Shown in pieces: positions 29,665-62,874 of a DNA stretch of 64,000 bases (its first letter is position 1; every line of letters begins with the position of its first letter). This DNA is from a virus: positions 1-64,000 of the IMG/VR virus record IMGVR_UViG_3300046507_000773; one strand, written 5' to 3'. The position numbers and the translations under genes are program-made. A model generated the notes under the pieces. It was given only the letters and a program-made list of their open reading frames with translations. It was not told the origin of the DNA and made no database searches.

Positions 29665-30546
29665 ATGATTAAGAGCGATAAGTGGATCAAGTCCAAGTGC
29701 ATGTTGCCCTTGGCGGTTGCGCATTACATGGTGCGTGGTTCGGCCTTCGATGGTCCGTTCCGAAAGCACGAATTTATCTACGGCGATGCGACCACCGACA
29801 TCGACGCGGAGTTCGACAAAATCGTCAACCGTGTTTCGCAGGAGAACAACGTCATCAGCGGTTCGACGCAACTGGAATACGTTGGCGACATCCAGGTCAA
29901 CGACTTCCAGCCGATGATCGAACCTTTCGTGCCGACGCAAATCCGGACTGCTGGCCATGACCGACATGTCCGCATGCTGGCGATGCCGCGCAATACGCCG
30001 CAAGAAATGCTGGCCCGCACGCTCCTGGATTTCGATGGCGACGACGAATTCGAAAAGCGTAAGATCATCTCGCGTGGTCTGACGAGCTTCGGTTACGATG
30101 TGACGCTGGCTGAAGAAGCTGCAATCTTCACCAACGTCAACTGCGCCGTCATCGATCCGCTGAACTTTACGGAAGACACGCTGCAGCGCGTCATTGCGAA
30201 AGACGGCTACTTCCTCATGCCGCCCAACAGCTACCTGCTGGGTTACACGAAGGAGTACTTCCGCATGCCGCGTAATGTCATTGCCGTCGCGCTGGGCAAG
30301 TCGACTTACGCTCGTGCCGGCGCCATCGTGAACGTCACACCGATCGAACCGGGCTTTGAAGGTACCGTCGTCATCGAGATCGCCAACGCGACCAGCCTGC
30401 CGATGAAGGTCTACGCCAACCAGGGTATCGCACAGTTCCTCTTCTTCGAATCCGACGAAGACTGTGAAACCTCCTACGCTGACCGTAATGGTGGCGAAGG
30501 TGGCAAGTACCAGGGCCAACGCGGCCTGGTGACTCCGCGGGGCTAA
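29665..30546 (+). CDS. dcd: dCTP deaminase-like protein with N-terminal extension
   Basis: Dcd converts dCTP to dUTP, feeding dUMP to thymidylate synthase. Residues ~125-293 carry the family blocks: '[11 protein letters not shown]', '[12 protein letters not shown]', '[20 protein letters not shown]' with S213/R217, '[13 protein letters not shown]' with E238 as the probable catalytic Glu, and the nucleotide-binding tail '[17 protein letters not shown]'. The ~120-residue N-terminal extension is not part of the usual ~190-aa enzyme. A dUTPase-type activity is possible, as the families share the fold. Confidence 0.85.
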
Positions 30547-32748: not shown

Positions 32749-33327
32749 ATGACTCCGCTTATTCCCATTTACAGTGACGAGAGCAAGAAGTTTTTCGTCG
32801 ATCCGGCTCTCCATAAGCCCTACGAGCGCCAGGTGTCGGGCGACATCAGCGTGACCACGAACTTCCTCAAGTTCGGCGAACGTTTCGACCTGATGGATAT
32901 CTCGAGCGCAACCGAGATGTTCGTGACCGGCATCCGTGACGTGACCGATACGATCGATCCGGCGGTGACACTGGAAAAGATCCTGGTGTCGTTCGGTGAC
33001 CTGGGTACTGCAATTTTCGATGTACGCAACCAAGTGTTCGCATCCATGCACTTTCCGCAGGGGGCCAGTTTCGATACCGTCAATCTCGATTTCAGTACCA
33101 CGAAGAAGTTCGAGAACATCGACATTATCCCGAACCCGCCGGTGGGTGACACGTTCCGCATCAAAGTCACGGGCCATGTGAACCTGCGGACTGGCGACAC
33201 GTTCCTGACGGCCATTCTGGAAGCGATGCCGGCCGGTGTGAATATTCCGCGACCCAGTCTCGAAGGGTACACCCTGCAAGCAAATGCGACCAACATCGCG
33301 CGTTTGGCGACGCCGCTGACTGCCTAG
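32749..33327 (+). CDS. hypothetical beta-rich protein, 192 aa
   Basis: Strongly beta-rich with many Thr/Val/Ile/Asp ('ILVSFGDLGTAIFDVRNQV', 'TFRIKVTGHVNLRTGD') and biased codons; this composition suits a virion or barrel protein. Not recognised. A strong terminator follows directly. Confidence 0.72.
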   Translation: MTPLIPIYSDESKKFFVDPALHKPYERQVSGDISVTTNFLKFGERFDLMDISSATEMFVTGIRDVTDTIDPAVTLEKILVSFGDLGTAIFDVRNQVFASMHFPQGASFDTVNLDFSTTKKFENIDIIPNPPVGDTFRIKVTGHVNLRTGDTFLTAILEAMPAGVNIPRPSLEGYTLQANATNIARLATPLTA

Positions 33328-33425: not shown

Positions 33426-33875
33426 ATGAGTACTTACGACAATGGCTTGACTGTCATCGTCAAGGGCGGCACCGCTTCCGGCAAAACGACTGTGGCAGCT
33501 TTCATCGGGCAGAAACTGCAAGAAGCTGGCTTTTCTCACATCGAGTACGACTGGCAAGAACAGCTCGTTCCTGGTGCGATCGAAGACAAGCTGGAGTCGC
33601 TTGCCGCTCGTCGTTCTGACGACAAGTTCTTCCAGAAGCCGATTCGTATCATCGAAGAACAAGAGCATCGCCGGCCCGTTCACAATGAAGAAAAGTTCAG
33701 TGAATACACTTACGAGCCACTCGTGACGCCCTCGGATTATGCAGCCGAAGCCGTACTCGACAGTCTGCGCGCTCGTAAAGGCGTGGGCAGTGAACTCGAC
33801 GGATACGACCAGGAAACCCTGGGTAGCATCTGTAAGGACATCAAGGAGATTATCTCCGAGTCCATGGGCAAGTAA
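33426..33875 (+). CDS. P-loop kinase-like protein
   Basis: ATG 33426 has AAGGAGA upstream. Residues 8-35 ('LTVIVKGGTASGKTTVAAFI') give an intact Walker A (GxxxxGKT), followed by a helix ending 'EAGFSHIEYDW' and a closing strand 'FFQKPIRIIEEQEH'. The order strand-P-loop-helix-GF-strand...closing strand matches the decayed family at 55237-59367, of which this is the only member here with a full P-loop. No LID Arg cluster of NMP kinases is evident, so substrate is unknown (149 aa). Confidence 0.65.
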   Translation: MSTYDNGLTVIVKGGTASGKTTVAAFIGQKLQEAGFSHIEYDWQEQLVPGAIEDKLESLAARRSDDKFFQKPIRIIEEQEHRRPVHNEEKFSEYTYEPLVTPSDYAAEAVLDSLRARKGVGSELDGYDQETLGSICKDIKEIISESMGK

Positions 33876-43972: not shown

Positions 43973-45535
43973 TTAAAATGCCATTGCCATTTCACCGACT
44001 GGAGTATCGAGCTCCCAGTCAGGGATTTCGTTACTGGAGCCAATCGGACCACCACCAACTTTGCTACGGCTACTGTCAGGGCCGTTCAAGTCATCCCGGA
44101 TTGCCCCGACAGGATAGAAGGGCAGCACGAGGTACTTGTACTTTTCTGGCAGGATGCCATTGACGCGATGCTTGCCACGTTGCAGCGTCAGGAAGGCGTC
44201 GCCATTGACGATTTCCTTGTGGATGTAGAGTTCCCAGTCCACTTCGTTGTCAAGCGACTGACACAAAGCGTACATGCCTTTGTTCTCGATTTGCTTCACG
44301 AAGTCCGTGGCGCCATCACGGGTCAAACGTTTAGCTTCAGTCGAGAGCTGGTGCGGAGTGATGAAAGCGATCTTACGCGGCGAGCAGAACGCACGAATGC
44401 GCTGGTACATGTTGCGAACGTCCGTACCAGTTGGGCCCACGGTACAGCCAGTCGTTGGTACCTGAGTCAGGTAGTCGACCATGCACAGGTGCACTTCGTA
44501 ACCTTGCGATTCGAATTCCAGCAGTTTGTCGCAGATGTGGCGGTAAGTCCAGAGCGTCGGGTTGACACTGATGATCTTGATGTGGTACCCGTTGACCCGG
44601 AGCTTCTCTTTGACGTACTGTGCGATGTACTTGGGATCGAGGCCAATCGTAACGGCTTTCTTGGTTGGGTCCTCGTTTTCCTTCAAGCTCATGTAGAGGA
44701 ACTCCATGTTCTTCTCGGCCGAGTCTTCGAACGTGAAACGAACGAGGAGTGGCTTCTTGAGCGGATTGATCATGTACGGTACGTTGTACAGAGCGATCTG
44801 CTTGAACATGGTCAGCGTAAAGCCAGTCTTGAAGTTGTGTTGCAGCGCGCCGATGACCCCTTCGTCACCACGACGGATGCCCCCTTGCAGCATTCGGTTC
44901 ACGCCCTGCCAGCCAGTCCTCATGATCGACTCACCCACTTCACTTGCCTGAACCTGGACGTAAGTCTGTGCGACAGCTTCTTCGTCATCGATGTCCAGCT
45001 CGTTAATAATAGCTGGGTCACGGATTACCGAGACGACGTTGCTTTCCTCGAGCTTTTGGGCAAGCTCAGCGAAAAACTTGTGGGTATCCTGAATTTCGTT
45101 CTTCTTGAACTTCATCCTGTACATAGCCTCTTCCATGATCTGGAAGGAGGTGGCTTCCCGCAAAGCCTCCTGCAGCGTGCGGCGCAGGTTCAATACGGTA
45201 CGCTTCAATGCGTTCTCATCGAGTTCGACGACCATGCTATCGTACAGGGCGTCGTAAGCACTCGTGTCTTCTCCGGTATCCACACGGAGGCGCTGCATGA
45301 GTTCGTTCAGTTCGTAGATGTGACCGTGTGGTGCGGAACACATCTGCATGGTGGTTTGACGAAGGCAGTCGATGATGTCATGTTCCTGCCCAACTCCCAA
45401 ATTCGACTCCAGGGCGGTGAACTTCATCTTACTAATTAAGTTACGGATGAGGTCACTGGAGCGTTCCGCATCATTCATTTGGCTCTCGCGGTAGAGCAAA
45501 GTGATGCTAGTGATAAGCAAAAGTTTGTTATTCAT
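43973..45535 (-). CDS. DnaB-like replicative helicase with unusual P-loop
   Basis: RecA-fold hexameric helicase that unwinds the replication fork. The 520-aa sequence has a helical N-terminal half and a RecA-like C-terminal half: 'TGWQGVNRMLQGGIRRG' (DnaB TGxxxLDxxxGGxxxG), the P-loop region 'GALQHNFKTGFTLTM' where Lys-Thr is kept but the glycine before Lys is Phe, Walker B 'VHLCMVDYLTQ', then 'FITPHQLS' and an Arg/Gly-rich segment near 'LQRGKHR'. Start is uncertain: ATG 45535 has no clear ribosome site, ATG 45478 is an alternative. It is transcribed against its neighbours and ends at its own terminator. Confidence 0.82.
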   Translation of the reverse strand: MNNKLLLITSITLLYRESQMNDAERSSDLIRNLISKMKFTALESNLGVGQEHDIIDCLRQTTMQMCSAPHGHIYELNELMQRLRVDTGEDTSAYDALYDSMVVELDENALKRTVLNLRRTLQEALREATSFQIMEEAMYRMKFKKNEIQDTHKFFAELAQKLEESNVVSVIRDPAIINELDIDDEEAVAQTYVQVQASEVGESIMRTGWQGVNRMLQGGIRRGDEGVIGALQHNFKTGFTLTMFKQIALYNVPYMINPLKKPLLVRFTFEDSAEKNMEFLYMSLKENEDPTKKAVTIGLDPKYIAQYVKEKLRVNGYHIKIISVNPTLWTYRHICDKLLEFESQGYEVHLCMVDYLTQVPTTGCTVGPTGTDVRNMYQRIRAFCSPRKIAFITPHQLSTEAKRLTRDGATDFVKQIENKGMYALCQSLDNEVDWELYIHKEIVNGDAFLTLQRGKHRVNGILPEKYKYLVLPFYPVGAIRDDLNGPDSSRSKVGGGPIGSSNEIPDWELDTPVGEMAMAF

Positions 45536-46296: not shown

Positions 46297-48474
46297 ATGA
46301 ATCCGTTCCAAAACAAAACCAAGAAGCCGGCACTGCCGGATTCGCAAACCGCGGTCATGCTGCGCTCCACCCTGAGCCAGCTGAACAAGAACAGCTCGCT
46401 GCTGAGCTCGCAAGTTGCCCGCGGCGCCTTCGCCCTGGAAGGTCTGGACGACGAAACCGTCCTGGCCATGGACAACGCAGCTGAAGGCCTGAACGTCGCC
46501 CTGGAACAGATCTTCCAGGAAGCCGGCTTCAAAGCAACCCCGCAGCAGAAGCAGTCGGCAATGATCGCCGGCATGATGGGCGGCGACGTGGGCGCCTACC
46601 TGGGCCACGCTGTTTCCCTGGAAGGTTTCCAGGCCAAGAACACCGACGTCGTGATCGTCGGCGCCGCTGACGCAATCGCCTCGCGTCCGGCAATGGAAGC
46701 GTACGACGAGAAGGAACTGAAGAACTCGATCGCCTACTCGGTCGCGTACAACATGAACTCGCCGCGTCAAGACGCGTTCGGCGAAGCCTTCTTCCCGACC
46801 GTCGTCGTGAACCCGGACCAGGTCGGCTACCAGATCTCGATCCGCCTGACCTACGTCTACCCGGAAGTCCGCCGCAACATCGACGGCTCCGTCAACGACT
46901 TCAAGAAGCGCAACATCATCCAGGCAATCGTCGACCCGTCGATCCTGAAGACCGAGCAGCTGAAGGTCGTGCCGGTGTTCCGTAACGAATCGAAGGCCAA
47001 CTTCGTCGACGAAACCCTGCTGCCGCCGAAGAACATCACCTTCGAAGGCGAGACCATCACCACCAGCGCCCTGCGCTTCGACAACAAGTTCTCGCTGCTG
47101 GGCATCTCCCAGACCCCGGCCCTGCTGGAAACCGGCGTCATGGACAGCACCGACGCGCTGGACGCGGCGATCACGCTGAGCAACGTCTACATGTCGGTCG
47201 CCGGCAAAGTGGGCGGCGTCGACAAGACCGAGGTGTTCAAGTTCATGACGGCCAACATGCCGCTGTCGAACTTCATCTCGATGCAGCAAGACGACTACCG
47301 CATGATGCAAGTCACCTTCATGACCGAAGGCCTGCTGATGACCGGTAACACCAAGACCGTCGCTGGCGCCGCTTCGGGCGTGCTGGCCGACATCGCTGCA
47401 CAGAAGGTCTCGGTCCGTCTGGAACTGACCGTGAACGGCACCGTGAACGTCGAACTGGGTACCACCAACCTGATGGCATCGAAAGTGCGCGTCAAGTCGG
47501 TCACCGACGAAGACGGCAACCTGCTGTCGCTGACCTCGCCGGGCGTCGGCAAGGACATCGCGGACCTGTTCGCAACGGCTGAAGCCATCGGCTACGACCT
47601 GCAAGCGCAGCGTACCAACAGCAACCGTCGTCAGCGCGGCACCCTGCTGGGCCAGACGATCCAGAACCAGGTGTACAACGTGCCCCTGCGCTCGCCGATC
47701 ACCATCCCGCGTCCGCAAACCGTTGGCGATGCCAACGACGCCTCGGACCTGGCTGCACTGATCTCGACGACCCGCATCCGCATCTCGAACGCGGCCGTCG
47801 ACAAGCTGCTGGAAACCGCTGACCAGCTGAAAGAGCTGGTTGCCCAGAACGACCTGCTGGAAAACAACCTGCCGATCCTGGGTATCGCCCGTCACCTGGT
47901 GACCGCCTTCTACGACGAGTTCACCGTCGACGTGCAAGCGTCGATGAACAACCTGACCTCGTCCGAGAAGTACGACGACATCAGCGCCACGCTGATCAAC
48001 CAACTGCGCGACCTCGTGTATCGCATGCTGGTGAAATCGGCCTACCAGGCTGCTGCTGACGCGCTGGCTGGCGGCATCGCTCCGATGCCTGACGTCATCA
48101 TCGGTACCGATCCGAAGACCGCTCGCTACCTGATGGTTTCGGGCGACCTGCGCACCCTCGGCACCGAAGTGAACATCAAGCTGGTCACCACGCTGAACCT
48201 GCAGATGCGCGACACCATCATCGTCGCCTTCGGCCAGCCGAACGCCGGCGACGGTACGCCGAACCCGCTGCACTACGGCAACATGGTCTGGAAACCGGAA
48301 ATGACCCTGATCATGCCGACCCAGCGTAACGGCTCGAACTCGAAAGAGATCACCGTCACCCCGTCGTTCAACCACATCGTGAACGTGCCGATCATGGCCC
48401 GTATCTACGTGAAGGGCATCAGCGACGCGGTGGGCAGCAAAAGCACTGTTGCCTTCGAACAGGTCGGTCCGTAA
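46297..48474 (+). CDS. probable major capsid protein
   Basis: The 725-aa product has the most strongly biased, GC-rich codons of the window, expected for the most abundant virion protein. Its size is near the ~747-aa capsid protein of phiKZ. N-terminal ~70 residues are helical and could be a cleaved delta-like domain. The rest alternates beta-rich and helical parts, with 'FYDEFTVDVQASMNNLTSSE' and 'MPDVIIGTDPKTARYLMV' and a final beta-rich 'FNHIVNVPIMARIYVKG', compatible with an HK97-type fold in which 'PDVIIGTD' is a typical A-domain strand. Monocistronic with hairpins after it. Alternative: another abundant structural protein such as tail sheath. Confidence 0.65.
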   Translation: MNPFQNKTKKPALPDSQTAVMLRSTLSQLNKNSSLLSSQVARGAFALEGLDDETVLAMDNAAEGLNVALEQIFQEAGFKATPQQKQSAMIAGMMGGDVGAYLGHAVSLEGFQAKNTDVVIVGAADAIASRPAMEAYDEKELKNSIAYSVAYNMNSPRQDAFGEAFFPTVVVNPDQVGYQISIRLTYVYPEVRRNIDGSVNDFKKRNIIQAIVDPSILKTEQLKVVPVFRNESKANFVDETLLPPKNITFEGETITTSALRFDNKFSLLGISQTPALLETGVMDSTDALDAAITLSNVYMSVAGKVGGVDKTEVFKFMTANMPLSNFISMQQDDYRMMQVTFMTEGLLMTGNTKTVAGAASGVLADIAAQKVSVRLELTVNGTVNVELGTTNLMASKVRVKSVTDEDGNLLSLTSPGVGKDIADLFATAEAIGYDLQAQRTNSNRRQRGTLLGQTIQNQVYNVPLRSPITIPRPQTVGDANDASDLAALISTTRIRISNAAVDKLLETADQLKELVAQNDLLENNLPILGIARHLVTAFYDEFTVDVQASMNNLTSSEKYDDISATLINQLRDLVYRMLVKSAYQAAADALAGGIAPMPDVIIGTDPKTARYLMVSGDLRTLGTEVNIKLVTTLNLQMRDTIIVAFGQPNAGDGTPNPLHYGNMVWKPEMTLIMPTQRNGSNSKEITVTPSFNHIVNVPIMARIYVKGISDAVGSKSTVAFEQVGP

Positions 48475-50771: not shown

Positions 50772-50785
50772 GTAAGGGAGTGAGC

Positions 50786-52426
50786 ATGGGAGATAGAGAG
50801 CTAGGGCGTCTCATCGATTTACATACGCCTAAGCTGAATCCTCGCACTGCCAAAGGCCTTGCTGTGGAGCATTTGCAGAAACCTGAACTGTACATCGATC
50901 AGGTGATGCGCTCCGCAGCAAAAGGTTTCCCTGTTGGGTTGCACTACCTCGGCTTTTCCCACACGACGCCGATGGAAGAGTTCAACGAGCAAAAGCGTCG
51001 ACCCAGCAGTAACCGTGGCAATAAGAAGCAGTACGACATTGCGCGCTCGGACGTGTACATGGTGAAGTTCCACTTCCGCTGGCAACCACCGGGCTTACCC
51101 CCGGAAGACTTGCCGCCGCGGTATATCTCTTTGCCGTTTGTCGGCGAAGCAGGTACGATCTATATCAGTGGAAGCCGGTTTGTCATCTCGCCAATCATGG
51201 CAGACCGGGTGATCTCTGTGGGCGAATCGGATGTCTTTGTGCGGTTGCTCCGTGCGAAGCTGACGTTCAAACGCATGGGTCACCACTACCGCATCAACGG
51301 TCAGATCGAGACCGTCAACGTGGTGTGGTCGGAAATCCATAACGGCCGTAGCAAAACAAAGGGGACCAGCGGGGCAGGCAAAGCAAAAACGACGATGATG
51401 CATTACTTGTTGGGCAAGTACGGCTTCACCGAAACGTTTGCTCGCTTCGGGAAATGTTATCCGGTTATTGGTGGACCGGAGATCAACGCCAACAATTACC
51501 CGGCATCGGAATGGACCATCTGTTCCAGCAGCGAAGTCAAACCGCGCAATGCATCGCGTGGCAGCTATGCGCCTTCCACCGTGCGCCTGGCAATTCGCAA
51601 TGAAGAGTTCACCCCAACCGTCAAGTCGATGGTGGCTGGATTCTTCTACATCGCCGACTACTTCCCGCATCGCGTGATTCCCGAGACGCGCTATGTGGAC
51701 TCGCAGCGTCTGTGGATGATCCTGATGGGTCACATTCTGTTCTCTTCGCTTTCCATGGAAGGACAGTTGTACGACAACATCGCGGACCATTACCATTCGC
51801 TTGACTACTACATCGACATCATCGTCGATCAGCAGTTGCGAGAAATCGGTATCGCAGTCGATAACGTGTACCACCTGTTCCATGTCATCATCGAGAATTT
51901 CGACAAGTGGGTTGTGAACTCCGGTGACAAGATGACGAGTGTGTACGACAAGGAGCTGAACGTTCGTCACTTCTTGTTGCACGATATCACTTCGTCGATC
52001 ATGAACATGAACTTCCGTCTGAATGCAGCGGCCAAGAAGGAGCTGACCAAGAAGGAAATCATCAAGATCATGGACGCTACCTTGCGTTCTGGCACGATCT
52101 TCCTGATCACGAAGAAGCACGGCGAAGTGTCAACCCTGTCGTCTCCGGGTGACAACATGGCATTCAAGATGACGGCCATGCTGATCCCGCAGTCGGAATC
52201 GAACAAGCAGTCCAAACGTAATGATCGAGGCATCCTCACCGATCCCTCGAAGCGGTTCCACGTATCGGTGATCGAGATCTGCTGTTACTCGAACCTACCG
52301 AAGAGTGGACCAGACGGCCGCCAACGTCTCAATCATTGCGCTCGTCTTGACGATCGTAATGTGGTGCAAAGGAATCCTGTATTCGTGCCTATTCTGGATG
52401 AAGTGCAGGAACTCATTAAGCGGTGA
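50786..52426 (+). CDS. RNA polymerase beta-subunit N-terminal-like fragment
   Basis: phiKZ-type phages encode split beta/beta' subunits for virion and non-virion RNA polymerases. In this 546-aa protein residues 117-134 ('PFVGEAGTIYISGSRFVI') resemble the beta-subunit protrusion motif (GTFIINGxERVI). The C-terminal block, residues 490-522 ('RFHVSVIEICCYSNLPKSG', then 'GRQRLNHCARLD') lies where bacterial beta has its HxGRxCPxETPEGxNxGL segment and resembles phage variants with LPKSxPxGxxxLN. The remainder of beta would be on another gene. ATG 50786 has AAGGGAG upstream. Assignment is from remembered motifs. Confidence 0.6.
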   Translation: MGDRELGRLIDLHTPKLNPRTAKGLAVEHLQKPELYIDQVMRSAAKGFPVGLHYLGFSHTTPMEEFNEQKRRPSSNRGNKKQYDIARSDVYMVKFHFRWQPPGLPPEDLPPRYISLPFVGEAGTIYISGSRFVISPIMADRVISVGESDVFVRLLRAKLTFKRMGHHYRINGQIETVNVVWSEIHNGRSKTKGTSGAGKAKTTMMHYLLGKYGFTETFARFGKCYPVIGGPEINANNYPASEWTICSSSEVKPRNASRGSYAPSTVRLAIRNEEFTPTVKSMVAGFFYIADYFPHRVIPETRYVDSQRLWMILMGHILFSSLSMEGQLYDNIADHYHSLDYYIDIIVDQQLREIGIAVDNVYHLFHVIIENFDKWVVNSGDKMTSVYDKELNVRHFLLHDITSSIMNMNFRLNAAAKKELTKKEIIKIMDATLRSGTIFLITKKHGEVSTLSSPGDNMAFKMTAMLIPQSESNKQSKRNDRGILTDPSKRFHVSVIEICCYSNLPKSGPDGRQRLNHCARLDDRNVVQRNPVFVPILDEVQELIKR

Positions 52427-52465: not shown

Positions 52466-54511
52466 ATGATGTTCAATCAATCGAATGACCTGCCGTTCGA
52501 TCCCGTCAACCTGCAAGTCCAGCCGATCAACTTCAGCTTGCAGAATCCGCCGTACGTGCCGAACAACGTGAATACCCACGAAGCGTTGTACGATTACGTT
52601 CCGGCGATCTGCGCGCTGCTGGCCAACGAAATCCAAACCAAGGCCACGGCAAGCAATACGAACTTCCTCCGGGTGTTCATGTACAACCAGTGCGCTCCGA
52701 ACAACTTCGCTACCGAAGCGTTCGACCAGCTGGTGCATGCAACCCTGGACTTCGTCGTCTACATCCTGACCCCGCCGGTATCCATCCAGAACCCGTCGGT
52801 CGAAGCGGCTATCGAGTACGCCGTCCCCGAGATGGTGTACATGATGGCTGCCTACAACTGCCAGCAATACCCGCGTCTGGGTAGCGAGGTGCCGCAGCAA
52901 CTCGTTGGTACGCTGAAGGCGCTGATCGAACAGTACCACTTCGTCAGCAAGGAAATCGAGAACCTCAAGCGCGGCGGTCAGAAGTCGAACAACGCCAGCA
53001 TGGGTAATCGCTCGGCGTTCGGTGGTCGTGGTTCGTTCGGTGGTGGTCAAGCCAACAACAACAACCGCGGCTCGTTCGGCGGTGGTGGACAGCAGCAGCA
53101 AAGCAGCTTCGGTGGCTTCGGCAATCGCAACAACAACCAGAACGCCAACACCAATCGCAGCTTCGGCGCCAGCTCGGGTCTGTTCAGCAATACCAGCAGC
53201 ACCCCGATGGGCTTTGGCAAGCAAACCAATTCGTTCGGTGGCGGCGCGTCGCAGCCTGCTACCCAAATCGAAACCAAGCAAACCACCGGCAGCAAGTATC
53301 CGCAGCCGAACTTCAGCAAAGGAACCAACATGCAGCCTGCAGCACAAGCACCGCAGCAATCGCTGGCCGAAGAGCTGTCGTTCGAATCGCCGGCCGGCCC
53401 GTCGAACGAGGACTACACCGCCACCGACTGGGTACCGTCCAAGCGTTACCCGTACTTCCCGGCGTTTAACCCCGCTACCATGACCCTGTCGTACGAAATC
53501 CAGGCCGACGGGACCACTCATCCGATCTTGAAGAAAAGGGACCCGAATATGGAATACGACCGCCACGCTTTGCCGAGTGTTTTCGGTAACGCGCCGGAAA
53601 GCTACGACCTGAGCCGCACGGCTCAATCGCTGCAACGTATCCAGAAGGGCACGCTTGCCATCAACAGCGAAGCAGCCCTGGCTGCAGCGCCGGTCGAAGA
53701 AGGTCAGGAAGAGCCGAAAACGGTTCTGAATCACCCGGAATGGTTCATCGAGACGTCGCTGACCGGCGCCTGGCTCGTGACCCAGCTGGCTCGTCTGGAA
53801 CTGGACCAGTCCCCGGACGTGTTCCGTGCCAACGCGATGGTGACTTCCCCGATCATCGTGACCCCGGCCGAGAAGGAAACCGTCTCGATCCTGTCCAAGT
53901 GCATGACCTACAAGGGCCTGCGCGAACAGATGGAAGCTGCGTACACCCGGATGACCCCGGAACTGTACCAGGCTCTGAACACCCGGATCACCCGGATCGT
54001 GAACCAGAGCATCCGTCTGGAGATGGGCATTCCGAAGCTGTCGATGACGGACTTCCGTACCGACATCGTCGAAGTGCTCGAGTACATGGAAGAGCGTTAC
54101 GGCAAGGACGTGCTCAACGCGTTCACCTCGCGTCAGGAAGCGCACATCAAAGAAGCGATGGCAACCCTGGACGACGAAGCCTCGGCCAAGATGGTCGACA
54201 GCTTCCTGGCTGGCAAGAAGTTCCCGAACGACATCGCGCCGACGATGCTCTGCCTGGCAACCAACTTCAGCCTGACCGTCGTGAACGTGCGTTCGTTCGA
54301 CCTCGAGCTGGAACTGGGCAACGATGGCCTGGGTTCGGCAGTCACGCCGGAAGCTGTACCGGAAATCCATGAGCTGGTCAAGGGTCTGTTCACGGCGCCG
54401 CACGCCGAGATGGTGCATCGTCACCTGATCCGCACGCAAGACGGCCGCGTCATGGAAGCTGCGCAAGGTGCGCTGGGTGACGGTTACTACACCCTGTCGC
54501 TGGTCGAGTAA
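52466..54511 (+). CDS. 681-aa protein with an FG-rich low-complexity segment
   Basis: A helical N-terminal ~170 residues is followed at residues 179-262 by a low-complexity segment of Gly, Asn, Gln, Ser and Phe with many FG pairs ('AFGGRGSFGGGQANNNN', 'SSFGGFGNRNNNQ', 'FGASSGLFSN', 'MGFGKQTNSFGGG'), then a linker and a helical C-terminal ~330 residues. Strong codon bias. FG/prion-like segments drive condensates in other systems; here that is inference. It directly follows the RNAP-like gene and ends with a terminator. Not recognised as a known family. Confidence 0.78.
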   Translation: MMFNQSNDLPFDPVNLQVQPINFSLQNPPYVPNNVNTHEALYDYVPAICALLANEIQTKATASNTNFLRVFMYNQCAPNNFATEAFDQLVHATLDFVVYILTPPVSIQNPSVEAAIEYAVPEMVYMMAAYNCQQYPRLGSEVPQQLVGTLKALIEQYHFVSKEIENLKRGGQKSNNASMGNRSAFGGRGSFGGGQANNNNRGSFGGGGQQQQSSFGGFGNRNNNQNANTNRSFGASSGLFSNTSSTPMGFGKQTNSFGGGASQPATQIETKQTTGSKYPQPNFSKGTNMQPAAQAPQQSLAEELSFESPAGPSNEDYTATDWVPSKRYPYFPAFNPATMTLSYEIQADGTTHPILKKRDPNMEYDRHALPSVFGNAPESYDLSRTAQSLQRIQKGTLAINSEAALAAAPVEEGQEEPKTVLNHPEWFIETSLTGAWLVTQLARLELDQSPDVFRANAMVTSPIIVTPAEKETVSILSKCMTYKGLREQMEAAYTRMTPELYQALNTRITRIVNQSIRLEMGIPKLSMTDFRTDIVEVLEYMEERYGKDVLNAFTSRQEAHIKEAMATLDDEASAKMVDSFLAGKKFPNDIAPTMLCLATNFSLTVVNVRSFDLELELGNDGLGSAVTPEAVPEIHELVKGLFTAPHAEMVHRHLIRTQDGRVMEAAQGALGDGYYTLSLVE

Positions 54512-55236: not shown

Positions 55237-56763
55237 ATGGCTAAGAAAGAGAAGGGTAGCGTCAACGAGCCGACGCGCGAGGTGTTGGATCTCCGAGATC
55301 AAGGCGGGATTGACATTCGCACCAGCGTTGGCGACGAGGGACCTGTTCCCATTACCGGTAGCGTGGGCGTGGTGGTGCTAGGTAAAGATCCCGAGCGTTC
55401 GGCTATCATGGCGGACGTCATCCACAGCCAGCTGCAAAAGCTCGGCTTGCCGATGGTGGAGCGTCACGAGTTTCACGATGTGGGCAAGAGCCACACGATC
55501 GAATACGATGAACCGTCGGTCATGGACATCATTGGTCGTCGTGATCCCAAGCTTTACGGGACGGCAGTTGTGGTTGCACATGACAACTTCGGCCACAGAC
55601 TGGTGGGTAGCCAGCAAAATCAAATCGTCGGCGATATGGTCAAGCGTTCGGACCTGGTCGCCAACAATGAAAGCAAGGTGAGTCGTATCGGACATATCGA
55701 AGAATCGGACGACACTCGTCGTATCTTCGGTAAAAAGGTCGACAAAACCATCACCGATCTTGCTGACCGGGCGCACAACGAAATCTCGGAAGCCGTCACC
55801 AACATTCTGATCGATGGCGTTTATCGTCTCGAACCGAATGTGGCACCGATCAATCGTCTGCTCGCTGTCCAGGCTTTCGTCAGCCGGACAGGTGTGGGTG
55901 CGGCAGCTTACGATGGCTATCGCCGTGTGGAAAACATGCTGATGGCCGCAGAGCGCGTCGAGAACCATATCGACGAACGGGCGGATTCGGGCTTGTTTGA
56001 ACTTTCCTCGTACGGACTGGATCATCAGTTGCGTTCGAATCTGAAACTGGAAAACCAGATCTCGCATCCGAACCCGACGGAAGAAGACGATGAAATGAAT
56101 GCTCGTGTCTATGACGAGCTGGGGCATCTGATGTGTTCTTACCTGGATGTGCATCAGGACAACACGATGCGTCAAGTGAAAGGTCAGTTCCCGTACGACG
56201 GTAGCCTGATCAATCCAGCCTCCGTCGGCCTGCCGAGCGAAATCGACGGCAAGAAAGTCGAAGCGCGTTTCGTCTCGCACCCGGACGAACTGCGCTACAT
56301 CCTCGACCAGAGCAACGTCAACCTGAACGAGGTGGCGAAGAACAAGATCATCGATACGTTCTTCGCACGCGAGAATGCCAATCCGCCGATCTCGGGTGCT
56401 CGCACCTTTGCGCCGGGCCAGGGCTTCAATCGCGATTTGGCAAAGCTCGAAGGCATCGTCGAGGATCTGCGCAAGATGAACGAAAAGCGTATCGATCCTG
56501 CGGCAACCCTGGAAAAGCATCTCCAGAATCCCAAGGAGCCGAGTGCGGCAGAAAATGCCTGGGCCCAGGGCGTGGTTGACCGTGTGAACAAGAAGATCGC
56601 GGAAGACGCAGCCACGACCTCGGAGACGATCGAAGATCTGCTGGAAGATGCATCCGAACTTCCGATCAACGTTACCGTTCATGAGAATGGCATCAGCATG
56701 ACCAATACGAAAGATGGACCCATGCTCACGCTTCGTAATGGCGTGAAGGTCGGACGTTTCTAG
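55237..56763 (+). CDS. 508-aa protein with N-terminal decayed P-loop-like unit
   Basis: Residues 41-116 show 'GVVVLGKDPERSAIM', helix, 'LGLPMVERHEF', then the family core 'PSVMDIIGRRDPKLYGTAVV', shared with the five small genes at 57306-59367. The remaining ~390 residues are helical and acidic with 'NPTEEDDEMNARVYDELGHL' and end in a beta-type tail. So this is the large, multidomain member. Biased codons; 12 bp after the preceding gene. Catalytic Lys of a P-loop is absent (G-K-D-P-E-R). Function unknown. Confidence 0.72.
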   Translation: MAKKEKGSVNEPTREVLDLRDQGGIDIRTSVGDEGPVPITGSVGVVVLGKDPERSAIMADVIHSQLQKLGLPMVERHEFHDVGKSHTIEYDEPSVMDIIGRRDPKLYGTAVVVAHDNFGHRLVGSQQNQIVGDMVKRSDLVANNESKVSRIGHIEESDDTRRIFGKKVDKTITDLADRAHNEISEAVTNILIDGVYRLEPNVAPINRLLAVQAFVSRTGVGAAAYDGYRRVENMLMAAERVENHIDERADSGLFELSSYGLDHQLRSNLKLENQISHPNPTEEDDEMNARVYDELGHLMCSYLDVHQDNTMRQVKGQFPYDGSLINPASVGLPSEIDGKKVEARFVSHPDELRYILDQSNVNLNEVAKNKIIDTFFARENANPPISGARTFAPGQGFNRDLAKLEGIVEDLRKMNEKRIDPAATLEKHLQNPKEPSAAENAWAQGVVDRVNKKIAEDAATTSETIEDLLEDASELPINVTVHENGISMTNTKDGPMLTLRNGVKVGRF

Positions 56764-56783
56764 TTCAGTAACTAATGGTAAAA

Positions 56784-56819
56784 AAGCTAGCCTCTATTCA
56801 TCTTACGTAGAGGCTAGCA
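56784..56819 (-). terminator. perfect hairpin with T-run only on the - strand
   Basis: 11-bp stem GCTAGCCTCTA / TAGAGGCTAGC. On the - strand it is followed by TTTTTTACC; on the + strand by AGTTGGG. No - strand gene lies nearby upstream (next is the portal-like gene ending at 60037), so it may block antisense transcription or act as an RNA element. Confidence 0.55.
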
Positions 56820-56859
56820 GTTGGGCCTGTCGTACATCTAAACGCTGGAAGGAATCCAC

Positions 56860-57183
56860 ATGCTGCACTTGAATCGCCCCATCGCCCAAACAATCGCGAT
56901 GATGGTCGACTTTACTGTGCTTTCACCTGAATACCACGGCACCGACATCCATGTTGTCCCAGACGCCCTGCAGGGAAGGCCTGTATCGATCTTTACTGCA
57001 CCAACTGCATCACCGAATAAAAGTGTCGTGATTTACGAGCCGACATTTGATGAAACCGTCTACGATGGCATCAATGTTTCGTTCATCAAGAATCATGCCA
57101 GTCTTCTGGATGATAATTTCAGAGGACCAGACGTAGCGAATATTGCCAGGCAACTCGTGGAATTCCTTGCACATTCTGCGTAA
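56860..57183 (+). CDS. hypothetical protein, 107 aa
   Basis: GGAAGGAA precedes ATG. Beta-rich with His/Thr/Pro ('GTDIHVVPDALQGRPVSIF') and ordinary codons. It interrupts the array between the large and small P-loop-like members and does not belong to that family. Followed by a 122-bp A/T-rich gap. Confidence 0.65.
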   Translation: MLHLNRPIAQTIAMMVDFTVLSPEYHGTDIHVVPDALQGRPVSIFTAPTASPNKSVVIYEPTFDETVYDGINVSFIKNHASLLDDNFRGPDVANIARQLVEFLAHSA

Positions 57184-57305
57184 TGTTTGCTGTTTGTTAA
57201 TAAAATGCTATGTTAAAATTATTGACCACGCTATTTTAATGAAAGGAATAATTACTTCACCAGTTTTGTTTTACTTTACAGTAACTTAGAGAAGGAAGAA
57301 AACAA

Positions 57306-57626
57306 ATGACAGCAGTTCCAGGAAACATTCACGTCAACATCAGCGGCCAGGACAAGGATGCCCGCGATGTGGTGGCGACCATCGTCAACGATGCACTGAC
57401 CAAAGAAGGGTTCACGAATACCGCAATCGTGAACTCGCACGGCGAACCCATGGCTGGCGTGCACGCGCCGTCGGTGCTCGACGTGCTGAAAAGCCGTGAC
57501 CCGGAGTTCTTCGCAACCCCGGTGCAGATCTGGGCTGACTCGCCCGTCGCAGAAGCGATCGTGAATGCGATCGTGCCTACCGTCGTCGAAGCCGACGTTA
57601 CCATCAACGAAATCGACCCGAAATAA
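57306..57626 (+). CDS. decayed P-loop-like family member A, 106 aa
   Basis: Begins with strand 'IHVNISGQDKDARDVVATIV', helix, 'EGFTNTAIVNSHGE', then the family core 'PSVLDVLKSRDPEFFATPV'. The loop SGQDKDARD replaces Walker A. Strong codon bias. One base separates it from member B. The role may be binding of a nucleotide or another subunit, but no direct evidence exists. Confidence 0.7.
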   Translation: MTAVPGNIHVNISGQDKDARDVVATIVNDALTKEGFTNTAIVNSHGEPMAGVHAPSVLDVLKSRDPEFFATPVQIWADSPVAEAIVNAIVPTVVEADVTINEIDPK

Positions 57627-57627
57627 A

Positions 57628-58155
57628 ATGACTTTCGAAAAATCCGAAGAAACTCCCAAGCAAGCTCCGCGTCCAGCATCGAGCACGATCCACATCAACA
57701 GCAACAGCCGCATCGGCGAGCGCGTGATCACCAACATCGTCGCTGAAGCGCTGAAGGAAAAGGGCTTCACCAACGTGGACGTGCGCAAGTCCCATGGCGA
57801 AACCCACGTCGTCAAGAACGGTATGGAACCGCTGTCGGATGATCCGACGACCGTCATGGACGCCCTGATCGCCCGCAACCCGTCGTTCATGAACAGCCGC
57901 GTGACCGTGCAGCCGAACGGCTACCATTACGGTGGCGACATCCCGCCGGACAGCGAATACCCGGCCGCCGGCCTGCCGATCGTCGGCTACAAGACCGCGC
58001 AGTACGCCGACACGAACATCATCGCTGTCGACGAAAAGGGCGGTGAGCAATACATCGCCCACGCCAATTCGCCGGAAGTTGCCAAGGCACTGATCCAAGT
58101 GCTGGAAAAGTCCGACGTCAAGATCCCGGTCGACGCCATCCAGGCGCCGTTCTAA
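57628..58155 (+). CDS. decayed P-loop-like family member B, 175 aa
   Basis: ATG 57628 follows the previous stop by one base. After a Pro/Glu-rich 20-residue N-terminus: 'IHINSNSRIGERVITNIV', 'KGFTNVDVRKSHGE', and core 'TTVMDALIARNPSFMNSRV'. It has a unique C-terminal extension with Tyr/Gly-rich and beta/helix segments ('YIAHANSPEVAKALIQVLE'). Strong codon bias. Followed by hairpins and a terminator. Confidence 0.7.
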   Translation: MTFEKSEETPKQAPRPASSTIHINSNSRIGERVITNIVAEALKEKGFTNVDVRKSHGETHVVKNGMEPLSDDPTTVMDALIARNPSFMNSRVTVQPNGYHYGGDIPPDSEYPAAGLPIVGYKTAQYADTNIIAVDEKGGEQYIAHANSPEVAKALIQVLEKSDVKIPVDAIQAPF

Positions 58156-58163
58156 TACCAGAT

Positions 58164-58232
58164 CGCGCTCTCCGCTACGAACACTCCCCGTAGCGTCTTG
58201 GAGCGCCCATAACTAGGGCGCTCCTTTTTTTG
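58164..58232 (+). terminator. double hairpin, second a strong terminator
   Basis: First stem GCTACG/CGTAGC inside CGCTC/GAGCG (58164-58205); second GAGCGCCC/GGGCGCTC (58201-58223) followed by CTTTTTTT. The two share GAGCG and are mutually exclusive, an attenuator-like arrangement. Confidence 0.65.
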
Positions 58233-58248
58233 TTAAGGAAGGACTATA

Positions 58249-58671
58249 GTGAACGTCCAAAAGCAAGCAAACGGTATCGACATCGTTATCGAAGGTGGTA
58301 GCGATTACAACAACCACATGGTAGCGATGGTAGCTACCAGAGCCCTGCACGATGCAGGCTTTACCAATGCGCACCGCGTTTTCACTCCGACCGGTACCAG
58401 CGAAGTGCATCGCCTGGCGAATACTGATCAGTACGTTCCCTCGGTGCTGGACGTTATTCGTAAGCAAGACCCGTCGGTGTTCCGTACGCCGGTCGTCATG
58501 GCTGCGCATGATCCGAAACCTTTCCCCAAAGAGCGTCGGCGCCACGATCGCGCGCTCTTGCAAGCAGATTCCATCGCCGAAGCCCTGAGCGTGAGCGATG
58601 ACCCGGATGAAATCTGGGCAAACCTGCAAGACGGAGACAAGCACAGAATCGTGCGTGAACTGGTGCGTTAA
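58249..58671 (+). CDS. decayed P-loop-like family member C, 140 aa
   Basis: GTG start with AAGGAAGGA upstream. 'IDIVIEGGSDYNNHMVAMV', 'AGFTNAHRVFTPTG', core 'PSVLDVIRKQDPSVFRTPVV', then a charged helical tail ('DKHRIVRELVR'). No Walker Lys. Confidence 0.7.
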   Translation: MNVQKQANGIDIVIEGGSDYNNHMVAMVATRALHDAGFTNAHRVFTPTGTSEVHRLANTDQYVPSVLDVIRKQDPSVFRTPVVMAAHDPKPFPKERRRHDRALLQADSIAEALSVSDDPDEIWANLQDGDKHRIVRELVR

Positions 58672-58701
58672 TCCAGGGATCAACTAAAGTGAGGTAACAC
58701 A

Positions 58702-59016
58702 ATGATGAATCGAGACCATCTGAGCATCGCAGTCAAAAGCCCGGCTGTCGTGGCTAATGATCTCATTGGCCGAATCATTAAAGACGCCCTGAAAGGTGGC
58801 GGCTTCAAGTCCGTTGAAGTCTACGACCAAAAAGGCGATCCCGTCCCGCCAAAACCCCTGGTGACGATGCTCGATGCAGTACGTTCGCTCAGCCCGAAAA
58901 CTTTTCAAACGCGTGTCGCTATTCGCACGAAGGATGAAGACCATACGGAGTTGACATTCACCGAACAACTGCAAGGCGTCGAACTGGAAACTGGTGAAAC
59001 TGTGGAACAAGACTAA
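58702..59016 (+). CDS. decayed P-loop-like family member D, 104 aa
   Basis: ATGATG start (58702 or 58705) with GAGGTAA upstream. 'LSIAVKSPAVVANDLIGRI', 'GGFKSVEVYDQKGD', core 'VTMLDAVRSLSPKTFQTRV', acidic tail. The most diverged loop of the set (KSPAVVAND). Confidence 0.68.
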   Translation: MMNRDHLSIAVKSPAVVANDLIGRIIKDALKGGGFKSVEVYDQKGDPVPPKPLVTMLDAVRSLSPKTFQTRVAIRTKDEDHTELTFTEQLQGVELETGETVEQD

Positions 59017-59058
59017 CGGCCTATTCAATGGAGTAGCGTTAGCATATGGAGGTTTAAA

Positions 59059-59367
59059 ATGGTTGAAGATGACATCAACATCCTCATTACTGGAGGACCT
59101 GATTCGGGCAAGGCTGTTGCTGCTGTACTCATCAACAAAGCTTTGGCCGACAATGGCTTTTCAGACGTCATCATGCTTTCGGATAGTGGCAAAGCCATTT
59201 CCCCGATTGAAGCAGTACCGTCCATTCTGGACGTAATTAAGAACGGCACTCCAAGGCTGTTCGAAACTCCCGTGATTGTCCAGGAGATCAGAACGAAGGC
59301 ACCTTACTTTCAGCGTCCCGCACGACGATTAGAGCCCTCAGGGCCAATTCTGGAAGTAGAAGGGTAA
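59059..59367 (+). CDS. decayed P-loop-like family member E with near-intact Walker A
   Basis: 'INILITGGPDSGKAVAAVLI' keeps GGxxSGK but has Ala for the Thr/Ser after Lys. Then 'NGFSDVIMLSDSGK', core 'PSILDVIKNGTPRLFETPV' and a basic Pro-rich tail (102 aa). It bridges the decayed members and the intact P-loop protein at 33426, which supports common descent. Confidence 0.7.
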   Translation: MVEDDINILITGGPDSGKAVAAVLINKALADNGFSDVIMLSDSGKAISPIEAVPSILDVIKNGTPRLFETPVIVQEIRTKAPYFQRPARRLEPSGPILEVEG

Positions 59368-60036: not shown

Positions 60037-62874
60037 TCAGCTTGCCTGCTCGTCATCAGTCTTGCCTTTATCGTCGCCGTCCTTTGGTGGTTCTTCGCCT
60101 TCTGGTTTCGCTGCAGCTTCGTCTGCTGCCGGTTCACCTTCAGCACCACCTGCTGCGTCAGGAGTCGCAGGTTCAGCAGTTGCATCAGCGCCGTCATTCA
60201 GACCGCCACCGAGGTCACTGCCCAAGTCAAACCCATCATTCCCGCCACCGCCACCGAACTCATCGTCCGTAGTGCTACCGCCACCGCTCTGGTCATCGGT
60301 GCTACCGCCACCAGATGCTTCCATGTCGCCAACCTTCGCTTGCAGCACTTCATTGGATGCACGCTTGATTGGTTGCAGGTTGACCATGAACGAAGTCAGG
60401 TGCTTAGTGAGGGACTCGATGTGTTCCATCGCGCCGTTGTACAGTTCCATCGTCGGCGAACCGTCTTCGTTGGTTTCCGTGATGGAGGACAGTTCAGGCA
60501 AGATGCCGTTGTCTGCCATGTACTTCTGCATGAAGCGTGCCTTGACGATTGCACGAACCATGCCGGTCTGGTTTGCCACGTCGCCACCGGACTCGCTCGT
60601 GTAGAACGCGTCAGCAATGATGTGGTCCAGTGCAGCATCCAGCGCTTTGCCATAGACTTCCATGGCTGCCAGTTGGTTTTCCAGCGTGACCGAATTCGGA
60701 CGCGGCAGGTTTGCTTCGAAGCCAGCGATGAATTGCTTCAGGAATTCCGTGATGATGAACATCTCCACTTCTTCCTTCTTGACACTCTCGGACATCTGCT
60801 TGTCCTTCATGTACTCTTCGATGCGGGTTTCCAGCTTGTCCTTGTTCTTGACGAGGATTTCCAGCAGCGCTTTCCACAGGTTTTCCGAAGCACCCATGTA
60901 TTTGCGCATGTGGTCAGACAGTTGCGGCGTGAAGACGTCCTGGATGTTGATCACCTGCTTACTCAGCAGGATGTTGTTCGACACCGCAGTGGTTGCGAAC
61001 TCGATGGGAATGCCCGAGTCCACGAGTTCCGGCGGAACGCCCGAACTCATGATGCTGTCTTTACGCAGGCTGTCGGCCAGGTCCGTGTCGGGCTTGACGT
61101 ACTGGTTCGACTTTTCACCGAAGTCCACACGAACGTCCGGCATGCCGGGGTGACCTTCCGTGATGAATTCCAGGGAGGCCAGGTTCAGGTGGTCGACGAT
61201 GTCAGTCGGACTCGTCATGCCAACAGGTGGCAGCGTCTTCTGACGGGAACGCACGACTTCGTGACGGATGATTTCTTCGCTCCTGAACGGGTCAGGATCT
61301 TTCTCATCGAGTTTGATCTTGACTTCGGTGCGGCCGATGGAATTTTTGATACCGGCCATGACGTTCGAGAACAGAAGCGCCGAACGCAGACCGTTCGTCA
61401 CCTTCATCTGGTCCAGCATGGATTCACCCACGCCGTTCTCGTCGTATTCAAAAGCGATGTACGTCACGAGTTCAGCTGGCAGGAACACCAGCTGCGTATG
61501 TTGCTTAGCCAGAGCGCGGGCGAACATGATGCGGTAGATCGATTCGCGCTTGGCAATCGACGCACCTTCACCATACGCACCGTTACGAAGACGCGCCAGC
61601 AGTTCTTGCTCGACCATTTCACCGAACACACGAGCCGAGAAGTCCAGGTGTTGCTGGTTCATCGGATCGAACCCGTTCATCTCGCCCTTGACCTTATTGA
61701 GCATGACAGACGGGAAGGACGATGCACTCGACAGACGCGAACCCATGTCCAAGTTCTGCTGGTATTCAGAAGCGTTGGTAACTGGATTACCTTCGCCGTC
61801 CGTGATCATGAAGTAACCCAGGTGCTGCGAGACGTTACCGGGCATGAAGACCGGCAGCAGTGCTTGCGGTGGGATATGCATGACCAAAGGTTCGCCAACA
61901 GCACGGCGATTCAATTGGTCTTGCGTCTTCAGGGTCGTGATCGGATTGTACTTGAACGCACGGTTCTTGTAGATCAGATCGACCAGCTGACGATCGTTCA
62001 TCATCGGGTTCTTGTGCGACTCCATGGCAGCACGATGGCCACCACTACCCAAAGCCTGCTGGATCTTCTGTTCACGCAAGCGCTGGTTCAAGCGCGGCAC
62101 GTTCAGGATAGCAGGGTTGTCGCAGACGGTGATGAACGTCTCTTGTGCTTTACCTTCGAACGCCAGGGAGAGCGTGACGTTCTGATCGATGTTCTGGTGC
62201 TTGGTATAGCCACCAAAACTCTCGAGCGAAATACTCGACATCGAAGTCGGTGTCGGCGCTTCTTTAACAACCGGGCCCAGGATCGACAGCGGACGGATGT
62301 TGCCTTTGTCGTCGAAATGATCCTTGATCATCTCCATCGAAATCTGGCGACCACCATTGATTACGTCGTCCAGAGTGTTCTCCGGAATAACAGCAATGGG
62401 ATAAGCGCCTTCGTCGAAAATTGCTTTACCGAGGATATCGGCGAGCTTCGGCGTTATTTTATAGTCCTTTTCCAGATGGGCTTTAATCGCAGCCATCATT
62501 TCGGAGGAAACCTCCGGCGGTAAGAGCCCTTCTGCCGATGTGTAATTCAGCTCGACAGTAACCATGTCTTTCGGTGCCAGGACGGAGCTCACCAGGATTT
62601 GCTTGGTGCGTTTCAGGTCCGGCAATACCTGAAGGACGGTTTTAGCATCGATGATGTCTTGTGCTTTCCGCTGGCCAATTTGTTTCAACTGGCTGACATC
62701 TGGGGTGTGCGGCGAAAGGTTCCCTTTGTCGTCGTACGTTGCAGAATTATTGCCACGGATTGTCTTACTCAGGATGGCCGCCATTTCCGGGTTTTGTCGC
62801 GTGAGCTTCATCACCGGGAAATGTTCACCCTGGTTGGCACTCTGTAAGGCCTGTTTGAAAGTTTCACCAGCCAT
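60037..62874 (-). CDS. portal-like virion protein
   Basis: The portal is the dodecameric DNA channel at the capsid vertex. The 945-aa protein is in the size range of jumbo-phage portals. Residues ~75-170 read 'QDIIDAKTVLQVLPDLKRTK', 'SSVLAPKDMVTVELNY', helix, and 'GKAIFDEGAYPIAVIPENTL', which matches portal order (helix, strand, xx[FY]xxGxxxxxVxP). Long helices follow in the centre; the C-terminal ~60 residues are Gly/Asp/Glu/Ala-rich and disordered ('GGGSTDDQSGGGS'). ATG 62874 has AAAGAGG 8 nt upstream and is divergent from the next + gene by 32 bp. Identification is from size, context and partial pattern; other large structural proteins are possible. Confidence 0.55.
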   Translation of the reverse strand: MAGETFKQALQSANQGEHFPVMKLTRQNPEMAAILSKTIRGNNSATYDDKGNLSPHTPDVSQLKQIGQRKAQDIIDAKTVLQVLPDLKRTKQILVSSVLAPKDMVTVELNYTSAEGLLPPEVSSEMMAAIKAHLEKDYKITPKLADILGKAIFDEGAYPIAVIPENTLDDVINGGRQISMEMIKDHFDDKGNIRPLSILGPVVKEAPTPTSMSSISLESFGGYTKHQNIDQNVTLSLAFEGKAQETFITVCDNPAILNVPRLNQRLREQKIQQALGSGGHRAAMESHKNPMMNDRQLVDLIYKNRAFKYNPITTLKTQDQLNRRAVGEPLVMHIPPQALLPVFMPGNVSQHLGYFMITDGEGNPVTNASEYQQNLDMGSRLSSASSFPSVMLNKVKGEMNGFDPMNQQHLDFSARVFGEMVEQELLARLRNGAYGEGASIAKRESIYRIMFARALAKQHTQLVFLPAELVTYIAFEYDENGVGESMLDQMKVTNGLRSALLFSNVMAGIKNSIGRTEVKIKLDEKDPDPFRSEEIIRHEVVRSRQKTLPPVGMTSPTDIVDHLNLASLEFITEGHPGMPDVRVDFGEKSNQYVKPDTDLADSLRKDSIMSSGVPPELVDSGIPIEFATTAVSNNILLSKQVINIQDVFTPQLSDHMRKYMGASENLWKALLEILVKNKDKLETRIEEYMKDKQMSESVKKEEVEMFIITEFLKQFIAGFEANLPRPNSVTLENQLAAMEVYGKALDAALDHIIADAFYTSESGGDVANQTGMVRAIVKARFMQKYMADNGILPELSSITETNEDGSPTMELYNGAMEHIESLTKHLTSFMVNLQPIKRASNEVLQAKVGDMEASGGGSTDDQSGGGSTTDDEFGGGGGNDGFDLGSDLGGGLNDGADATAEPATPDAAGGAEGEPAADEAAAKPEGEEPPKDGDDKGKTDDEQAS

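Follow-up and report, generated by a model that had tools for sequence, protein, structure and literature searches.

Hetero-oligomeric ATPases include pseudo-NTPase subunits, i.e. inactive paralogues of a nucleoside triphosphatase (NTPase) that are kept beside an active one. Here we describe a set of phage genes which may have taken a comparable course. The genes form an array of six at positions 55237 to 59367 of the window, by which we mean the analysed 64,000-nucleotide stretch that makes up the first 64 kb of the 226,810-bp virus record IMGVR_UViG_3300046507_000773. The closest described counterparts are gp82–gp85 and gp88 of Burkholderia phage FLC9, deposited as hypothetical proteins (LC667451). 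Searches of Pfam and PHROGs with the array family gave nothing above cut-off (matches to Pfam kinases, APS_kinase and AAA_18 among P-loop families, all lay below it), and the family is named in no family library. A description of the array family was not found in the literature.

The array family and its mostly Walker-less loops

All six open reading frames (ORFs) listed in a preliminary description of this DNA are present, and they are paralogues beyond doubt. E-values in the following list are those at which each protein is recovered by a profile built from the other five:

55237..56763, plus strand: 508-residue protein, family domain at residues ~40–105, loop LGKDPERSA (E 8.9e-7)
57306..57626, plus strand: array member, loop SGQDKDARD (E 1.3e-18)
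57628..58155, plus strand: array member, loop NSNSRIGER (E 9.7e-11)
58249..58671, plus strand: array member with GTG start, loop EGGSDYNNH (E 9.3e-14)
58702..59016, plus strand: array member, loop KSPAVVAND (E 6.4e-11)
59059..59367, plus strand: array member with the near-intact loop TGGPDSGKA (E 1e-13)

The core motif previously proposed for these genes matches exactly these six among the 2,833 six-frame ORFs of the whole record, and 100 residue shuffles yielded 0 matches. Held-out members are recovered at E-values between 9e-7 and 1e-18; neither the other ORFs nor any of 200 shuffles per held-out protein scores better than 0.14. BLAST with 59059 alone finds four of the five other members, missing 57628. 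The second listed ORF begins at 57565, but the start given previously agrees with an ATG at 57628 in the same frame. The shared domain comprises about 80 residues in the order beta-loop-alpha-beta-alpha-beta, and family members of the window and of FLC9 are all acidic (isoelectric point 4.1–6.2). In 55237 it is followed by a C-terminal part of ~400 residues with no family match above cut-off in Pfam or PHROGs. A match of this protein to Pfam Peptidase_C107 (0.002, below cut-off) was judged to be due to chance.

A seventh gene of the window belongs to the same family:

33426..33875, plus strand: relative in single copy, not linked to the array, whose Walker A (GGTASGKT) is intact (E 1.4e-5 with the profile of all six members)

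Every leave-one-out profile finds this protein as well (E 4e-6 to 2e-4). In profile-profile comparison, 24 members, all of them Walker-less, aligned with 33426 and its orthologue on contig L049 at an hhalign probability of 96.6% (E 5e-10) over 77 columns, i.e. over the whole domain. Addition of a third intact orthologue gave 96.7%, and 40 column-shuffled nulls reached at most 0.6%. A thymidylate kinase control scored only 0.5%; hence, the match is not one to just any P-loop. These sequence comparisons are strong and specific evidence that the array members are homologous to the intact P-loop protein, and they point to one common ancestor. A further relative proposed at 21057 had to be dropped (E 24–45 or no match with the leave-one-out profiles, hhalign probability 0.2%). 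Its loop STGTGTG is a chance resemblance, and the family list of the window comprises seven genes, not eight.

The array loops had been described as a gradient from fully altered to almost intact. Such a gradient is real, yet lopsided: among 27 aligned array members the Walker A lysine position is occupied by Lys in one (59059, where the Thr has become Ala), by Arg in 13 and by Ala in 8. Lys-Ser/Thr in register, as in the Walker A pattern GxxxxGK[ST], is found in 0 of the 27. The full motif is found only in 33426 and its two orthologues (L049:5001, GPNASGKT; L067:1465, GPSASGKT). In the Walker B region, 33426 (RIIEE) and the L049 protein (VVITE) both end in Glu, whereas the array copies vary.

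For an array member, structure prediction did not confirm the shared fold that had been suggested. The AlphaFold2 (AF2) model of 57306 (predicted local distance difference test, pLDDT, 73.6; predicted template modelling score 0.44) matches no fold of the PDB at Z 2 or more. The model of 33426 displays the order strand-loop-helix-strand-helix-strand, with pLDDT ~90 for residues 11–40, and its matches, at low Z of 2.2–3.7, are mostly enzymes of the P-loop class (MobB, APS kinase, thymidylate kinase, MurD). A Foldseek search of the PDB with both models returned nothing below E 0.38, so that a fold search alone decides nothing. Thus, the notion of a P-loop family with a lost ATP site holds with respect to homology and to the absence of Walker A from nearly all members, while a P-loop fold of the array members themselves is suggested by their sequence kinship to 33426.

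Conservation of the locus in jumbo phages

Loci were compared around homologues of gene 60037 in FLC9 and in the IMG/VR contigs L019–L028, L030, L062 and L066. The array occupies the same site in FLC9 and in 13 IMG/VR jumbo phages, namely between the homologues of genes 52466 and 60037. Copy number, which the preliminary description had recommended to be checked, ranges from one to nine per phage; seven to nine copies, some of them overlapping by one base, are found in L026 and L062/L066. In a tree of 51 family domains the window members pair with members of L026, in an order that is kept in L062 and L066. Gene 55237 groups with L024:12813 (support 0.90), 58249 with its orthologue L026:8794 (0.93), and 59059 with its orthologue L026:8094 (0.89). 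The collinear orthologue of 57306, L026:12135, is 44% identical; L062 and L066 hold counterparts of 57306 and orthologues of 58249, and 58702 is the best match of L062:13373 and L066:13415.

The FLC9-type members form five lineages (gp82, gp83, gp84, gp85, gp88), each with one copy per phage and support of 0.90–0.99. The ratio of nonsynonymous to synonymous substitution rates (dN/dS), determined in the FLC9-type clade and not in the window phage, is 0.02–0.11 for gp83, gp84, gp85 and gp88 among close relatives; these four lineages are under strong purifying selection. Decay of the loop is not to be equated with loss of function, as the reading frames are intact and evolve under constraint.

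The landmark genes of the window match phiKZ-type families:

43973-45535, minus strand: DnaB-like helicase, phiKZ-type family match
46297..48474, plus strand: major head protein (phrog_3231, E 1.7e-187)
50780..52426, plus strand: polymerase-annotated gene, left landmark (phrog_2943, E 1.4e-151)
52466..54511, plus strand: FLC9 gp89 homologue (E 2.6e-64; phrog_36323, E 6e-25) that borders the array on the left
60037..62874, minus strand: virion structural protein (phrog_3004, E 2.7e-217) that borders the array site on the right in all relatives

The record is that of a phiKZ-like jumbo phage, with the major capsid protein, divergent polymerase and DnaB-like helicase typical of this group: phrog_3231, 2943, 3213 and 3004 are all matched at E 1e-150 or better, and the phiKZ-type major capsid family PF25620 at E 8e-195 (Pfam). 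FLC9 is the nearest named relative found; its homologues are 48% identical for the polymerase-type gene and 48% for 60037 (gp80). The FLC6 homologue of 50780 carries the label putative RNA polymerase beta subunit.

No family members are present at the array locus of L065, L063 and Eowyn, nor did a whole-genome profile search detect any in SURPRISE13 and Eowyn. Phage records searched at near-DNA and protein level with 55237 and 59059 gave no usable match beyond FLC9, FLC9 gp82 and gp85 as queries found FLC9 itself only plus one chance-level match, and cellular genomes searched with the 57306 pair contained no relative. The FLC9-type phages G005 and G001 each carry one unlinked Walker-less member (L043:3175-3654 and L044:3094-3501) with the loops EHGDAGVA and EHGDVGVA and a long insertion ahead of helix 2. 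Sigma-70-type promoters show no excess across 52–61 kb; in the same scan TTATGCC occurs 11 times versus 4.4 expected, yet at sites outside the array. A dCTP deaminase-like protein is encoded at 29665-30546 (PF22769, 6e-28).

Possible roles of the array products

The array products are probably binding or building pieces rather than enzymes. We hypothesize that one domain of ~80 residues, homologous to an intact P-loop protein, was duplicated into one to nine small acidic proteins, and that the Walker-less copies may serve as non-catalytic, non-interchangeable subunits which would assemble with one another into a hetero-oligomer. Such subunits are best supported because the paralogues are ancient and separately conserved. 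The multi-subunit role of the preliminary description agrees with these collinear, one-to-one lineages under purifying selection; its further elements, mutual assembly and a kinase as ancestor, go a step beyond the evidence. We favour, tentatively and at somewhat less than even confidence, fixed non-catalytic subunits of a hetero-oligomer that is possibly head-associated.

A single nucleotide-binding partner may be provided by the intact P-loop paralogue, i.e. 33426 or, in the FLC9-type clade, possibly gp81. Intact GxxASGKT copies occur once each in the window phage, G003 and G013, ~22–25 kb upstream of the array on the same strand; no such copy was found in G009, the third relative searched in this clade. 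FLC9-type gp81 is a larger P-loop protein with an invariant GKT at the end of the array. It displays weak colinear similarity to the family (hhalign 9%, E 0.0035), which is only suggestive of a relation of its N-terminus. The gene (L016:8032-9897) and its homologues in L019–L030 diverge fast; their N-terminal GxxxxGKT is invariant and a VFxER motif is conserved. A 37-residue stretch of the L028 homologue resembles the divergent family B DNA polymerase (3.4e-5). The adjacent gp80 of FLC9-type phages is 82–96% identical to that of FLC9.

Neighbouring genes and capsid-protein paralogues are the reason why head assembly or virion association would be the most likely setting. One such paralogue lies directly upstream of 33426:

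32749..33327, plus strand: partial paralogue (192 residues) of the phiKZ-type major capsid protein (PF25620, E 2.4e-22), matching only model positions 145-267

FLC9 gp87, inside the array, is likewise a partial phiKZ-type major capsid paralogue; in all, partial paralogues of this kind occur in FLC9 (two), G001 (three) and G004. The full combination, a phage-specific hetero-oligomer of up to nine P-loop-derived subunits, at most one with Walker A, that is tied to capsid assembly, appears rather unlikely.

Several observations speak against a fixed subunit assembly. Virion proteomics tied to any family member was not found, no P-loop fold emerged from AF2 modelling of 57306, and the link to capsid paralogues is absent in G003. 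A strong terminator-like stem with T tract at 58200-58224, between 57628 and 58249, splits the window array, so that equimolar expression is not assured. L063, taken as Ralstonia phage RP12, has a single Walker-less member (profile E 3.3e-10) far from the array locus, which implies that an array is not required for a member to act. Furthermore, gp82 and the adjacent gp81 look exchanged between phages (synonymous divergence, dS, in one pair of 0.87 and 0.91 versus 0.24 next door), and the variable copy number is also compatible with conflict genes. Between L016 (FLC9) and L020, dS is 0.7–2.7 across gp81–gp88 except gp86 (0.47), and 0.5–0.6 for the flanks gp80 and gp89, so that this block resembles a hot spot of exchange.

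The last points lead to the strongest competitor, which we consider unlikely. The array could be a set of conflict genes, encoding small binders or decoys (e.g. of host NTPases or nucleotide signals) for host take-over or counter-defence. A lineage-restricted family with one to nine copies, the swap of gp82 and gp81 between close phages, and acidic products that lack structural annotation would suit such genes. However, most members are collinear one-to-one orthologues of low dN/dS, and their locus lies among genes for virion structure and of polymerase type, not in an obvious early accessory block.

A second alternative concerns the direction of change. The intact loop would be ancestral if Walker A was lost from the array copies; conversely, the ancestor may have been a Walker-less beta-alpha-beta-alpha-beta fold (e.g. 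ferredoxin-like), GxxxSGKT having arisen in a single clade. Walker-less copies are found in every clade, the RP12 copy (L063) among them, while intact ones were found only in the clade of the window. Among the top PDB profile matches of the Walker-less members are a heavy-metal-binding domain and a de novo alpha/beta protein, and the model of 57306 has no P-loop match. We rate this a little less probable than the conflict genes. Against it, ASGKT is identical in all three intact orthologues, the Pfam matches of 33426 and L049 are mainly to P-loop families, the model of 33426 draws mainly P-loop structures, and the intact, weakly similar gp81 stands beside the FLC9-type array.

Least probable is an accessory role for the RNA polymerase or the nucleus of the phage, together with the neighbouring polymerase-type gene: the array always follows that gene and the 52466-type gene, and RP12 encodes the complete complement of RNA polymerase subunits (PMC5468394), but L065, L063, Eowyn and SURPRISE13 share the polymerase genes yet have no array there.

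The present data define an unnamed family whose gene order is strictly maintained in several jumbo phages, in up to nine copies and without the ATP site of its relative. Knowledge of what the family builds would show how a P-loop fold becomes a non-catalytic part, and whether heads of giant phages use extra lineage-specific components next to capsid paralogues.

Comparison with described systems

The FLC9 proteins resemble those of the window in domain (profile E 1.6e-8 to 7.6e-17), locus and neighbours, at ~20–32% identity; the FLC9-type array additionally holds gp81 with its intact P-loop, gp86 and the capsid-protein paralogue gp87. The same domain is present in phrog_38013, a weak PHROG match of FLC9 members, and in the lone L063 protein (probably UniProt A0A1L7N106, 107 residues; BFVD fold match E 0.048), which, unlike the window array, is single-copy, unlinked and Walker-less. 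P-loop nucleotide and APS kinases (APS_kinase, AAA_18; MobB, thymidylate kinase) share with 33426 the order beta1-loop-alpha1-beta2-alpha2-beta3 and Walker A. However, this similarity is sub-threshold, the array members lack Walker A, and the domain is only about half as large as usual. Pseudo-NTPase subunits are alike by concept only: if the array belongs to a machine with inactive paralogues, loss of Walker A and duplication may have created distinct binding subunits, here among small proteins that a phage encodes in a conserved array of genes.

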